Below are positions 17,552 through 57,886 of a stretch of DNA of 57,886 nucleotides, one piece after another (the first letter of the stretch is position 1; every line of letters starts with the position of its first letter). This stretch comes from Chloroflexota bacterium (GTDB lineage: Bacteria > Chloroflexota > UBA6077 > FW602-bin22 > JAMCYS01). The stretch lies in the NCBI GenBank assembly GCA_023473795.1, contig JAMCYS010000117.1, forward strand, positions 1 through 57,886, written 5' to 3'. Under the pieces are notes generated by a model. It saw nothing but the letters and a program-made list of their open reading frames with translations. It had not been told where the DNA came from and did not search any database. The translations under genes were made by a program, and so were the position numbers.

Positions 17552-17619
17552 GAGCGGACTGAAGTCCGCACTACGAACGACGAGGAGCCCCTGTTTGTAG
17601 TGCGGACTTCAGTCCGCTC
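17552..17619. repeat. Long inverted repeat, AGTGCGGACTTCAGTCCGC family
   Basis: Two 23-base arms, GAGCGGACTGAAGTCCGCACTAC (17552-17574) and its exact reverse complement (17597-17619), flank a 22-base spacer. Each arm is itself partly palindromic (CGGACT-GA-AGTCCG). The same 23-base arm recurs once at 43805-43827. Just upstream, near 17518-17540, lies an inverted variant of the GGACAAGCCCCC hairpin found at 2126-2146. Confidence 0.75.
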
Positions 17620-43708: not shown

Positions 43709-43804
43709 GGCAATACGAGCGATAGCCAGCATAGGAACCACCACTGCCAGTCTATGTTGCCAACCTTCATTACTCCGCACTACAAGCCAACGCCCGCTCC
43801 GTTC

Positions 43805-43827
43805 GTAGTGCGGACTTCAGTCCGCTC
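43805..43827 (+). repeat. AGTGCGGACTTCAGTCCGC repeat copy
   Basis: GTAGTGCGGACTTCAGTCCGCTC matches exactly the right arm of the inverted repeat at 17597-17619. A shortened partner, CTCCGCACTAC, lies at about 43773-43783, so this is a decayed version of the same inverted-repeat element. It sits between the terminal hairpin and the DegV gene. Confidence 0.75.
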
Positions 43828-53765: not shown

Positions 53766-54674
53766 GTGTGGACCGTGAGCCAGCAGATTGAGGATTACCT
53801 CGAGGCCATTCGCAAACTAGAGGAGAGGGCAGGCTACGCGACTACCTCCGCCCTGGCACGCGAGCACCGCGTGGCGGCTCCCTCGGTCACGGAGATGCTT
53901 CGGCGCCTCTCCGAGCAGGGGTTGGTGACGTACGAGCAGCGCAAGGGCGTCAGGCTGACCCCCGAAGGCCGCAGGCGAGCCGCCTCGGTTGTGCGCCGCC
54001 ACCGACTGTGGGAGCGCTTCCTGCACGACGTGCTGGGATTCAAGTGGGATAAGGTGTACGACGAGGCCTGCGCGCTGGAGCACGCGACTTCGCCGGAGGT
54101 CGAGCGGCGACTGGCCGAAGCGCTGGGCAACATTGACACCTGCCCGCACGGCCACGCCATCCCCGGTCCCGACGGCGAGACGGACCTACCATTCCTAGTG
54201 CCGCTGTCGGAACTGAAGGCCGGCCAGACAGCGCGCGTCGTCAGAGTCACTGAGGAGCCCGCGGAGCTCTTACGCCGGATCGGTGCCCTGGGGATCAGGC
54301 CGGGGGTCAACGTGCGGCCGGGGAACGACGCACGGGGAGAAGGGACGGTTTCGCTCTGGGTGGGGGAACAGCAACGGCAGGTAGAGCGCGAGATTGCCGC
54401 TCACATAATGGTCGTGCCCCTTTCTCCAGAAGAGGTCGAGGAGGACAGCATCTCCCTCCTTGGCGATCTGGCGCCGGGGGAGGTGGGGGTGGTTCGGGAC
54501 TTCCACGGGGGGCACACCTTTGTCGCCCGCTGTCTCGCTCTCGGCTTCACGCTTGGCGTGGAGGCCAAGATGGTGCAAAACGTTGGCCACGGCCCGGTGA
54601 TCGTCCTCGTGCGCGACACGCGCGTGGCACTGGGCCGCGGCGAGGCCGAGAAGATCGTCGTCACTAGGAAGTAG
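53766..54674 (+). CDS. DtxR-family metal-dependent repressor with two SH3/FeoA domains
   Basis: 302 residues. The winged-helix domain (about 3-70) starts VSQQIEDYLEAIRKLEERAG, with SALAREHRVAAPSVTEMLRR as HTH. The dimerisation and metal-binding domain (about 70-137) has HRLWERFLHDVLGFKWDKVY with the conserved HxxxE and CPHGHAIP. Residues about 140-220 look like an SH3/FeoA-type domain, and about 228-302 like a second (LGDLAPGEVGVVRDFHGGHT, then GPVIVLVRDTRVALGRGEAE). The start is GTG 53766 or GTG 53775. Autoregulated through the boxes ahead, it likely represses feoB when iron is plentiful. Confidence 0.9.
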   Translation: MWTVSQQIEDYLEAIRKLEERAGYATTSALAREHRVAAPSVTEMLRRLSEQGLVTYEQRKGVRLTPEGRRRAASVVRRHRLWERFLHDVLGFKWDKVYDEACALEHATSPEVERRLAEALGNIDTCPHGHAIPGPDGETDLPFLVPLSELKAGQTARVVRVTEEPAELLRRIGALGIRPGVNVRPGNDARGEGTVSLWVGEQQRQVEREIAAHIMVVPLSPEEVEEDSISLLGDLAPGEVGVVRDFHGGHTFVARCLALGFTLGVEAKMVQNVGHGPVIVLVRDTRVALGRGEAEKIVVTRK

Positions 54675-54678
54675 GGGC

Positions 54679-56721
54679 ATGGGCAGAATAGCCGATCTGG
54701 TCGGGGCTAGGTCTCCAGCCGAGGGACAGACAGAGCGTAAGGCCGTCGTCGCCCTGGTCGGAGCGCCGAATGTGGGCAAGAGCACCGTCTTCAACCTGCT
54801 CACCGGCCTCTCCCAGCACGTGGGCAACTGGCCGGGTAAGACGGTCGAGGTGAAGACGGGCGTCCACCACCAGGGTGACGTGGAGCTGGAGATCGTCGAC
54901 CTCCCCGGCACCTACAGCCTCACGGCGAACTCCCCCGAGGAGCAGGTGGCCCGCGACTACATCATCCAGAGGCGGCCGGATGTGGTGGCCGTGGTGCTGA
55001 ACGCGGCCAACCTGGAGCGGACCCTCTACCTGGTGGCCGAGGCCCTGGAGCTGCCGTCGCCGGTGGTGGTGGCCCTCAACATGGTGGACGTCGCGGAGAG
55101 GGAAGGCATGAGGGTGGAGCCAGAGGTGCTTCAGGCCGCCCTGGGCGTGCCGGTGGTGCCGATGGTGGCATCCCGGGGAGAGGGCGTGCGAGAGCTGGTG
55201 GACACCATCGCCCGGTTGGCCCTGGGGGCTTATCCCTACATCCCGAAGCGCCCGGAGCCGGGACCGGAGCTGGGCGCGCTGGTCGGCCGCGTGGAGGATC
55301 TGCTGGGCGAGGAGACTCCACCTCCCCATCCCCGCCGCTGGCTGGCGCTCAAGCTGTTGGAGGGAGACAGGGACGCTATCGAGCTGGCCCGGGCGAACAT
55401 TCCGGGGGATCGATGGGAGCAGCTCAACTCCCTGCTGCGCGAGAACGAGGATGCCGTCGTGTCCATCGCCGGGGCCCGTTACCAGTGGATCGAGAGGATG
55501 GTCCGGGCGGCCGTCGTCGCTCCTCGCCAGGGGGCCATCTCCCTGACCGACAGGCTCGATCGCGCGGCAACCCACTCCCTTGTCGGACCCGCGATCCTGC
55601 TGGGACTCCTCGGCGTCCTCTTCTGGCTGGTCTACCGGGTCGGCGGGCCGGCGATGGACCTCCTGGACGGGGCGATGGGAGCCGGCGGCGACCTGCTGCG
55701 GGAGTCCCTGGCCGGCGCCCCTCCCTGGGTCGCGGGGCTGCTGGTCGATGGGGTGCTGGGGGGCGTGGGTACGGTCCTCGTCCTTCTCCCCATTCTGATG
55801 ATCTTCTTCCTGGGTATGGCCTTCCTGGAGGACGTGGGCTACATGGCCAGGGCAGCCTTCGTGGCGGATCGCTTCATGCACCTGATGGGTCTCCACGGCA
55901 AGTCGTTCCTCCCCCTCTTCCTCGGCTTCGGCTGCAACGTGCCGGCCGTATTGGGCACGCGGGTCATCCAGTCGCACCGCGCTCGGCTTCTCACCATCCT
56001 TCTGGCACCGCTGGTGCCCTGCTCCGCCAGGATCGTGGTGCTGGTCTTCGTCGCCGGGGCTCTCTTCGGCGACGCCGCTCCCCTCGTGACCTGGGGGCTG
56101 GTTGCCCTAAGCCTCACCCTGCTGGCGATCTCCGGGGTTCTCCTCGACCGCACTCTCTTTCGGGGCGAGCGCCCGGCCTTCATCATGGAGCTGCCTCTTT
56201 ACCACCTACCCAACTGGCGGACCATCGCCCTGGAGGTATGGCAGCATACCAGGGCCTTCGTGGCGCGGGCGGGGACGATCATCCTGGTCGTGTCGGTGCT
56301 GGTGTGGGCGCTGGCCGACCAGCCGGCCGGCAGTATCGAGGAGAGCTACCTGGCCCAGGTGGGAAGGCTGCTGGAGCCGCTGGGCGGGCTGATGGGGCTG
56401 GACTGGAGGATGATGGTGGCCGTGCTAACCAGCTTCGTGGCCAAGGAGAACGCTCTCGCCACCATGGCCGTCCTGTCCGCGGGCGGCGAGGAGAGCAGTC
56501 TCGCGGCGGCGCTGCCCCAGATGTTGACGCCGGCCGCCGCCCTGGCCTTCCTGGTCCTTCAGGTCACCTTCATCCCCTGTGTCGCCACGATCGGGGTGAT
56601 CCAGCAGGAGACGAGGAGCTGGCGTTGGACCGGTCTCGCGCTGCTCTACCTGCTTGTGCTTTCGCTGGCCATGAGGATAGCCACCTACCAGGCGGCGCGG
56701 TTCCTGGCCTTGGGGGGCTGA
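54679..56721 (+). CDS. feoB: Ferrous iron transport protein B
   Basis: 680 residues. The N-terminal G domain has G1 VALVGAPNVGKST, a G2 region VGNWPGKTVEVKTG, G3 EIVDLPGTYSL and G4 VVALNMVDVA. A helical GDI domain follows (about 170-270). The membrane part has about eight to ten helices with two gate motifs; LFLGFGCNVPAVLGTR and LAPLVPCSARIVVLVFV carry the conserved cysteine, and MVAVLTSFVAKENALATMAV lies in the second. It imports Fe2+ with GTPase control. Its ATG is four bases after the regulator stop. Confidence 0.97.
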   Translation: MGRIADLVGARSPAEGQTERKAVVALVGAPNVGKSTVFNLLTGLSQHVGNWPGKTVEVKTGVHHQGDVELEIVDLPGTYSLTANSPEEQVARDYIIQRRPDVVAVVLNAANLERTLYLVAEALELPSPVVVALNMVDVAEREGMRVEPEVLQAALGVPVVPMVASRGEGVRELVDTIARLALGAYPYIPKRPEPGPELGALVGRVEDLLGEETPPPHPRRWLALKLLEGDRDAIELARANIPGDRWEQLNSLLRENEDAVVSIAGARYQWIERMVRAAVVAPRQGAISLTDRLDRAATHSLVGPAILLGLLGVLFWLVYRVGGPAMDLLDGAMGAGGDLLRESLAGAPPWVAGLLVDGVLGGVGTVLVLLPILMIFFLGMAFLEDVGYMARAAFVADRFMHLMGLHGKSFLPLFLGFGCNVPAVLGTRVIQSHRARLLTILLAPLVPCSARIVVLVFVAGALFGDAAPLVTWGLVALSLTLLAISGVLLDRTLFRGERPAFIMELPLYHLPNWRTIALEVWQHTRAFVARAGTIILVVSVLVWALADQPAGSIEESYLAQVGRLLEPLGGLMGLDWRMMVAVLTSFVAKENALATMAVLSAGGEESSLAAALPQMLTPAAALAFLVLQVTFIPCVATIGVIQQETRSWRWTGLALLYLLVLSLAMRIATYQAARFLALGG

Positions 56722-56722
56722 C

Positions 56723-57013
56723 GTGCTGATCCAGTTACTGCGCCTAATCGCCGAATCGGACGGCGTGGTCGCGACATCCAGCCTGGCGCGGAAGCTCGGG
56801 GTGAGCGAGGTCCTCTTCAGGCACATGGTTGAGGAACTGGTCCACCTAGGGTACCTCGCCTCCCTCACGCACGACTGCCAGGCTGGGTTGTGTCCCCTCT
56901 GCCCCAGCAGAACCAGCTGCGCGCTGCCCTTGGAGACACGGCTGTGGATACTCACCGAAAAGGGGCGGCGACTGGTGGATAGGTTGCCCTACCAGTCATT
57001 CGGCCGCGCGTAA
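56723..57013 (+). CDS. FeoC-like winged-helix Fe-S protein
   Basis: 96 residues. The N-terminal winged helix (LLRLIAESDGVVATSSLARK, LGVSEVLFRHMVEELVHLGY) is followed by a cysteine cluster DCQAGLCPLCPSRTSC, and a C-terminal wing with ILTEKGRRLV. The cysteine pattern suggests an iron-sulfur or metal site, like FeoC and related proteins that sit behind feoB. It may report iron or redox state to FeoB or control its degradation; this is inference. GTG 56723 is one base after the feoB stop. Confidence 0.8.
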   Translation: MLIQLLRLIAESDGVVATSSLARKLGVSEVLFRHMVEELVHLGYLASLTHDCQAGLCPLCPSRTSCALPLETRLWILTEKGRRLVDRLPYQSFGRA

Positions 57014-57076
57014 GAGGCGGTTGCCTGTTGAGGGGGACGTGGAGGGCAATGCCAGGGGCCGCTGCCGACCGACATT

Positions 57077-57223
57077 CTAGCGCCCGAAGGTGAATCTGAG
57101 GACGGCCGCGGCGCCCAGGAAGATGCCTGCCAAAGCGACGCCCACCCTGGGGTCACACATGGCGGCGAGCAGCACCAGCAGCGCGGCCACGATGGTAATA
57201 TCGTTCTCGGCGTGGTTGTTCAT
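57077..57223 (-). CDS. 48-residue membrane protein
   Basis: A short protein MNNHAENDITIVAALLVLLA, then AMCDPRVGVALAGIFLGAAA and VLRFTFGR. It contains two hydrophobic stretches (about 9-22 and 27-42) and should sit in the membrane. GGGAAGGGAG ends six bases before the ATG, a good ribosome binding site. It converges with the FeoC-like gene. No family is recognised. It was too short for standard length cut-offs. Confidence 0.6.
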   Translation of the reverse strand: MNNHAENDITIVAALLVLLAAMCDPRVGVALAGIFLGAAAVLRFTFGR

Positions 57224-57322
57224 CTTGTACTCCCTTCCCCGTACAACGGACCGTGTCGCCGAGGGTTTCGGTAGTGGGCTAATCGCTCACCGCTTGTCAC
57301 ACATCCTTCACTCACAACGCTG

Positions 57323-57352
57323 TTGACATCCGTCCCCTACTTGTGGTATTTT
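57323..57352 (+). promoter_or_regulatory. Probable promoter of the livK-like gene
   Basis: TTGACA (57323-57328) is a consensus -35; TATTTT (57347-57352), 18 bases later, is a weaker -10. Transcription would start near 57360, giving a leader of about 315 bases. Confidence 0.6.
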
Positions 57353-57359
57353 CTGCTCC

Positions 57360-57675
57360 ACTGACCGCAAGGTCAGACAAACGGAATAGGGCCAGGTAAG
57401 AAGTGCGTTTGCCGTGGGCTTCGCGTTTTACTTTTATTACGCGTTCGCCGGGCACGCTTAGGTTGCTGGCGTTGGCTGCCGTGCGCAGTTAGACGCGAAG
57501 CCAGGGCCGAGGGCGTGTTCCATTAGCCGCCCGCAGCCTTTCAGTTCTCCCCGTAAGTAGCTACCAAAAGCACCAATCATAAAGGCCGCGGGGCAGGCGG
57601 GAACCCGCGGCCTTCGTCTTCGCGCTTGCTGCCCCGCGGCCACTCAGAAATAAATAGGTGGAGGAGCAGAGGTCT
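57360..57675 (+). promoter_or_regulatory. Structured 5' leader with two exclusive hairpins
   Basis: Gene-free 5' leader. It opens with hairpin CTGACC-GCAA-GGTCAG (57361-57376). GGCTTCGCGT (57417-57426) pairs perfectly with ACGCGAAGCC (57493-57502). Near the gene, AAGGCCGCGGG (57582-57592) can pair with CCCGCGGCCTT (57604-57614), while the overlapping GGCCGCGGGGCAG (57584-57596) can pair with CTGCCCCGCGGCC (57629-57641). The last two exclude one another. The layout resembles an attenuator or riboswitch; no known class was recognised. Confidence 0.55.
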
Positions 57676-57886
57676 ATGTTAGCGCCCCGTCGTCTACTCC
57701 AACTCGTGGTCGCTATCCTTCTCTTGCTGCCGGTTCTAGCAGGCTGCTCGGCCGGTAGTGCTACCGCCGAGCCCTACAAGATCGGCGCCTTGTTTGCCGT
57801 CACCGGCAACAACTCTCCCCTGGGCACGCCCGAGAAGGAGACGGCCCAATTGCTGGAAGAGCAGATCAATGCCAAAGGCGGCATCA
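57676..57886 (+). CDS. LivK-type branched-chain amino acid ABC binding lipoprotein, 5' part
   Basis: The first 70 residues. A lipoprotein signal MLAPRRLLQLVVAILLLLPV leads to lipobox VLAGC, then the beginning of a type-1 periplasmic binding domain, YKIGALFAVTGNNSPLGTPE with EEQINAKGGI, matching the LivK/peripla_BP_6 family start. GGAGGAG lies upstream. The ligand cannot be told from this fragment. Cut by the window end. Confidence 0.88.
   Translation, partial: MLAPRRLLQLVVAILLLLPVLAGCSAGSATAEPYKIGALFAVTGNNSPLGTPEKETAQLLEEQINAKGGI

Follow-up and report, generated by a model that had tools for sequence, protein, structure and literature searches.

Terminator hairpins in the 5' leaders of ABC-transporter operons have been collected by Naville and Gautheret (2010, PMC2965389), who report 205 ABC-transporter candidates and call the attenuators diverse and rapidly evolving. 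The leader described here, upstream of a livK-like gene, resembles these ABC-leaders in that an ABC-transporter operon has a terminator-like hairpin in its 5' leader. It differs from the five ABC-leaders of their Figure 4, which form an antiterminator within a conserved motif, whereas ours comes from one species and its possible antiterminator does not rise above chance. The leader-peptide attenuators of branched-chain amino acid operons (PMC6123439) likewise place a terminator in the leader, but their peptides, as presented in that article, are rich in these amino acids (15 in the 32 residues of the ilvGMEDA leader peptide), whereas the 29-codon ORF of our leader is at chance level.

Two leader RNAs carry the name of livK: the livK RNA motif RF01744, a candidate cis-RNA named in a table of PMC2864571 for Pseudomonadales, and a (p)ppGpp aptamer named livK in Oxobacter pfennigii (PMC12373219). 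Neither at the gathering score nor with E up to 5 does our leader match RF01744, and it matches no Rfam riboswitch family. The T-box leaders (RF00230) of the same genome also combine a leader and a terminator upstream of amino-acid genes, but a search of the livK leader for the T-box marks GTGGNACC, AGAGAG, CCGTTA and GRGTAG found none of them, and the leader has no match to the T-box model. The Oxobacter pfennigii aptamer belongs to the ykkC superfamily. Premature termination is also a feature of livJ of E. coli; in the openly licensed literature we found no paper on this termination, and no description of the present livK leader.

The livK leader and its operon

The window, that is, the whole stretch of 57,886 nucleotides analysed, is one contig (G000:C29) of a 4.44-Mb genome in 170 contigs, from an uncultured bacterium of Chloroflexi type. 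It ends within the livK-like gene, whose 5' end lies at 57676-57886 on the plus strand (ATG at 57676-57678, in frame with the called ORF) and which is truncated by a contig break at window positions 57760-57886. The last bases of the window recur, as a 127-base overlap, at the end of contig C4, which holds the remainder of livK (L003) followed by the H, M and G genes. From this overlap and the unbroken reading frame, we infer that the two contigs adjoin in the genome. The domains encoded by livKHMG are Peripla_BP_6 (binding protein), BPD_transp_2 twice (permeases) and ABC_tran with BCA_ABC_TP_C (ATPase). The livK-like gene proposed in the first-pass annotation is borne out, by its domains and by its continuation on C4. 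The proposal of amino-acid uptake fits the same gene families, amino acids being a possible substrate of the binding protein. The assembly splits the livK leader and its operon onto separate contigs.

The upstream neighbour is an iron locus (53766-57013) in which a DtxR-type repressor, joined to FeoA domains (Fe_dep_repress, Fe_dep_repr_C and FeoA in two stretches), is accompanied by FeoB and by a FeoC-like protein scoring slightly below the Pfam cut-off. On the minus strand, a 48-aa ORF (57077-57223) runs towards feoC and away from the livK promoter; it contains hydrophobic stretches and has a plausible ribosome-binding site.

That promoter is a sigma-70-type consensus match on the plus strand, as are all the leader features below: TTGACA-18-TATTTT, with TG before the -10, at 57323-57352. 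The consensus -35 reported earlier is thus present, 18 nt from TATTTT, and the match is unique in 56900-57886, against an average of 0.3 in shuffles. From the presumed start near 57360 to livK, the leader is roughly 318 nt long. It begins, as had been noted, with a GNRA-capped hairpin, P0 (CTGACC-GCAA-GGTCAG, 6 bp, 57361-57376, -8.8 kcal/mol), located at the presumed transcript start. A long hairpin, S (57417-57502, -41.4 kcal/mol, z -4.0), is closed by a 10-bp stem (57417-57426/57493-57502) and followed by a second hairpin, P (57503-57540, z about -2.4), which on paper rivals a possible antiterminator. Next comes a terminator-like 11-bp hairpin, T (57582-57622), which pairs 57582-57592 with 57604-57614 and has the tail TTCGTCTT, and which shares bases with a 13-bp hairpin, H (57584-57641; 57584-57596/57629-57641). 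Checked letter by letter, the 13-bp, 11-bp and 10-bp stems are all perfect and lie where the first-pass annotation had placed them.

By computation, the whole leader folds to -135 kcal/mol (z -2.62), and none of 100 shuffles was as low. Taken by part, z was -4.0 for the long stem, -3.4 for the 11-bp hairpin, -3.9 for the 13-bp hairpin and -6.3 for the GNRA hairpin, with none of 200 shuffles as low in any case, values that are flattered because the parts were chosen after being seen. When the leader was dinucleotide-shuffled 3000 times, 0.9% of the shuffles contained perfect inverted repeats of at least 11 bp and 0.07% contained repeats of at least 13 bp (loop up to 66); two stems of at least 10 bp with a common arm never arose. 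Window-wide, 13-bp inverted repeats are not unique, six having arms of at least 13 bp.

The possibility that the pairings belong to a dispersed palindrome was not realised: the leader matches only itself, the other match being the 127-base contig overlap. The word GGCCGCGGG was also considered as a dispersed element and rejected, as it is an ordinary word of the genome (404 places, versus 387 for the reversed control). Elsewhere in the window, the long palindromes at 17552-17619 and 43774-43814 have TCCGCACTAC in common and look like a dispersed repeat.

Scanned with Rfam 15, the whole window gave no match at the gathering score, and in 57250-57720 the best matches at E up to 5 were far below the cut-off, in agreement with the earlier statement that no known riboswitch class was recognised. 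The window contains no tRNA or tmRNA.

Hairpin T and the terminators of the genome

Hairpin T is a perfect GC hairpin with A before it and TTCGTCTT after it. It lies 568 nt past the feoC stop (57013) and 61 nt before livK, downstream of its own promoter. Its likeness to terminators was assessed by computation against the hairpins of the window and 400 kb more of the genome (457,886 bases), genes being called by a simple codon-usage script. We found 75 perfect hairpins with arms of at least 9 and loops of 3 to 12, 47 of them with arms of at least 11. Of these 47, the 6.3 kb of convergent gaps contain 13, the 39.9 kb of tandem gaps 27 and the 15.0 kb of divergent gaps one, the other six lying in genes; the crowding of such hairpins in convergent gaps is the pattern of terminators. 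In tandem gaps, 22 of the 27 lie no more than 120 nt after a called stop. T is the farthest of the 27 from the called upstream stop, at 860 nt, the next being at 270 nt; feoC was missed by the script, and the distance from T to feoC is 568 nt rather than 860.

The tail of T contains five T in eight positions. In a manual comparison of 30 such hairpins, for which the median is three, this is one of the better tails, and only three of the 29 others have six. The T-boxes of the genome offer a second yardstick. Twelve of their terminator modules were scored by script; the first module of L095 was wrongly located. The tails of the other eleven have four to seven T: eight with six or seven, two with five, and one with four, in which the stem extends its pairing into the tail itself. 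The tail of T equals those of the two weaker correctly located T-box terminators and is weaker than most T-box terminators of the genome. These counts therefore place the tail of T at the weak end of attenuators and at the strong end of gene-end hairpins. Overall, T matches the genome's own terminators and looks like a premature terminator. The tail-like word CTTCGTCTT was rejected as a general terminator tail of this genome: a stem of at least 7 bp accompanies it at only three of 30 places, two of which are both strands of one hairpin, the third being the leader's own.

In all, eleven T-box matches were found in the genome (L092-L102), two above the gathering score and ten with E below 1e-8, none of them in the leader. 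One precedes a gene (ORF L075:8434-10338) that we take to be ilvD-like, encoding dihydroxy-acid dehydratase, so that the organism uses a T-box on the branched-chain amino acid pathway. Within the livK leader, AGGCGGGAACCCGCG at 57595-57609 is a T-box look-alike and was discarded, as it is not the T-box sequence.

Several features of these T-boxes are worth recording for themselves. The Rfam family cut-off misses most T-boxes of this lineage. The leader before the ilvD-like gene (L095, G000:C62:68240-68680) has two successive GTGGNACC antiterminator/terminator modules, at 251 and 354, about 100 nt apart, after an apparently single stem I. Another T-box leader (L097, G000:C76:1400-1930) has an extra stretch before the antiterminator, ending in GTGGGGATTGAAAC, which to our eye recalls the end of a CRISPR repeat.

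Order of transcription and competing explanations

The first-pass annotation had seen in T and H two mutually exclusive GC-rich hairpins, a description that implies a switch. In folds of the growing transcript, the probability of T is near 1 for RNA ends at 57614-57622, 0.86 at 57630 and 0 at 57641, where H takes over. H is indeed far more stable (-40.8 versus -23.2 kcal/mol), and the full leader adopts it at equilibrium. However, its 3' arm is transcribed only after T and its tail, and the footprint of RNA polymerase delays the availability of this arm further. Because the arm emerges after the polymerase has passed the terminator, H cannot decide termination; it is ruled out as an antiterminator in the usual sense, and the implied switch between the two hairpins was not borne out. 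The practical lesson is that hairpins sharing an arm need not form a switch: the order of transcription must permit one.

Another antiterminator can be drawn upstream. It spans 57526-57598 (57526-57541/57581-57598), is favoured only in transcripts ending at about 57596-57606, and appears in minimum-energy folds together with a closing stem, P1 (57383-57393/57511-57521). Successive minimum-energy folds give P1 at 57522, P at 57545, P1 with the antiterminator at 57600, and P with T at 57614. The energy gained on adding the antiterminator arm is -1.5 kcal/mol, versus a mean of -7.8 with the upstream sequence shuffled, 197 of the 200 shuffles reaching this -1.5 or a lower value, and the mean pairing probability of the arm was matched or exceeded in 28 of 200 upstream shuffles. 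A GC-rich arm finds pairing partners in much upstream sequence. As the shuffled controls do as well, this antiterminator, although it can be drawn, does not stand out from chance. The ribosome-binding region of livK (GGTGGAGGAGCAGAGG, 57657-57672) has a mean unpaired probability of 0.17 in the leader; a possible anti-Shine-Dalgarno segment (57545-57552) pairs with 57657-57665 in the full leader, and seven of 100 shuffles hid the site equally well.

The livK-like operon thus has a well-folded leader, driven by a promoter, with a terminator-like hairpin in it. Attenuation is therefore the best reading, one of the two that the earlier annotation had suggested and one that T, the promoter, the folding and the operon together support. 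We give about an even chance to a promoter-proximal intrinsic terminator in the livKHMG 5' leader bringing about transcription attenuation of the ABC transporter, and the leader is probably nothing out of the ordinary, an ABC-transporter attenuator of a general kind already known. RNA polymerase would start near 57360 and make a strongly folded RNA (P0, S and P), then T. T would act as a terminator, some or most transcripts stopping at about 57615-57622, and termination would be regulated, some condition allowing a fraction to continue into livK. Branched-chain amino acids may be the signal, by analogy with the gene. In read-through RNA reaching 57641, the more stable H would displace T; as H forms only once the RNA has reached this point, it would be a consequence of read-through and not its cause.

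The same hairpins could do without any switch: H above all, but also the others, may stabilise the 5' end of the mRNA or fix the expression level, T being read through constitutively. We consider this rather unlikely. The stability of H, which far exceeds that of T and makes H the equilibrium state of the full leader, would suit it, as would an antiterminator not above chance, but T has the tail of a terminator and the corresponding position relative to the promoter, and would be superfluous for a stable 5' end. Promoter, well-folded body and terminator-like end also make up a complete transcription unit, which might be a separate small RNA gene of about 260 nt (promoter at 57323, terminator T), livK being expressed by read-through or from elsewhere. 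However, only 53 nt separate the tail of T from the livK start codon, a second promoter match was not found there, and the putative small RNA has no Rfam match and no homologue elsewhere (400 genomes searched by covariance model), so that we regard such a gene as unlikely.

An improbable explanation is that of a new riboswitch or protein-binding leader, with P0-S-P as sensor and P versus the upstream antiterminator as switch. The alternation of successive minimum-energy folds and the z of about -4 for the long stem speak for it; yet covariation is not possible with a single sequence, and the gain from the antiterminator arm falls short of the shuffled mean given above. An uncharacterised riboswitch, the other reading of the first-pass annotation, finds no support, the searches for homologous leaders having yielded neither covariation nor a conserved core. 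A more specific form of this explanation, a lineage-restricted new riboswitch in which P0-S-P would be the aptamer and P/T (off) versus P1/antiterminator (on) the expression platform, in an organism that runs ilvD by T-box, appears quite improbable. Ribosome-mediated attenuation would require a leader peptide, for which the candidate is the 29-codon ORF (GTG to TAG, 57403-57492) that overlaps the long stem and ends in LRLLALAAVRS. Its stop codon abuts the 3' arm of that stem (57493-57502) and it contains several Leu codons. However, a closed ORF of at least 29 codons occurs in 1500 of 2000 shuffles, its GC3 of 0.62 is unlike that of the genome (0.88 in feoB), its Leu content (5 of 29) is near the 16% of feoB, and its ribosome-binding site is weak by eye; moreover, P and T remain the best fold when the 3' half is released. 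With an ORF at chance level and an ordinary Leu content, it is probably not a leader peptide, and we reject this candidate as most improbable.

If transcription attenuation were confirmed, the leader would be an attenuator new to Rfam, on a transporter operon in a lineage that has received little study, and the organism would govern the synthesis and the uptake of related amino acids with leader RNAs of different kinds.

Relatives of the leader and of LivK

A BLAST search with the leader in 151 genomes (150 others) returned only itself, plus short matches of 23-40 bases at E of about 1e-3 to 8e-3. In 400 genomes (399 others), a covariance model covering the long stem and P also returned the leader alone, plus two partial matches of 46-47 bases at E of about 0.06; this model is insensitive because it was built from a single sequence. 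The leader had no match in the plasmid collection. With no homologous leader among 399 other genomes by the model or 150 by BLAST, nothing shows selection on the structure.

The upstream regions of LivK relatives in the same order are clearly different. Among named genomes, only Chloroflexi bacterium UBA6077 (L012) has a close LivK, the nearest relative at about 68% identity. Its livK leader is different and shorter, with a terminator-like hairpin of its own. In this region (L012:2772-2860), a perfect-consensus promoter (TTGACA-16-TATAAT) precedes a 7-bp hairpin that begins some 11 nt past the presumed start of transcription; TTTCTTTT comes next and ends 147-148 nt from the mature LivK homology, the same distance as T. 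As a whole, this leader folds no better than chance (z +0.7), and its alignment with the window leader gave no convincing likeness, so that it was set aside as a relative. The livK 5' region of UBA6077 may itself be an attenuator.

A uniform rule (stem of at least 7, five T in eight, within 300 nt) was applied to 19 livK upstream regions, after exclusion of L030 (only 76 bases upstream), L026 (same record as L012), L035 (match to part of LivK), and the distant L023 and L024, which have 23-25% identity. It found a site in four of the 19, versus 1.2 expected; at the stricter six T there were three, versus 0.3 expected, the window not being among the three. The survey gives mild support to 5' termination near livK with a fast-changing sensor, in line with the picture drawn by Naville and Gautheret for ABC transporters; the 15 of 19 regions without a site by the uniform rule count against a general rule.

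Two livK upstream regions from the same order, L027 and L028, have AGGAGGTGATGCC in common about 80-110 bases upstream of the livK start. It opens short ORFs of about 20 codons, ending TTGCTAA, and is presumably a near-complete complement of the 16S 3' end.
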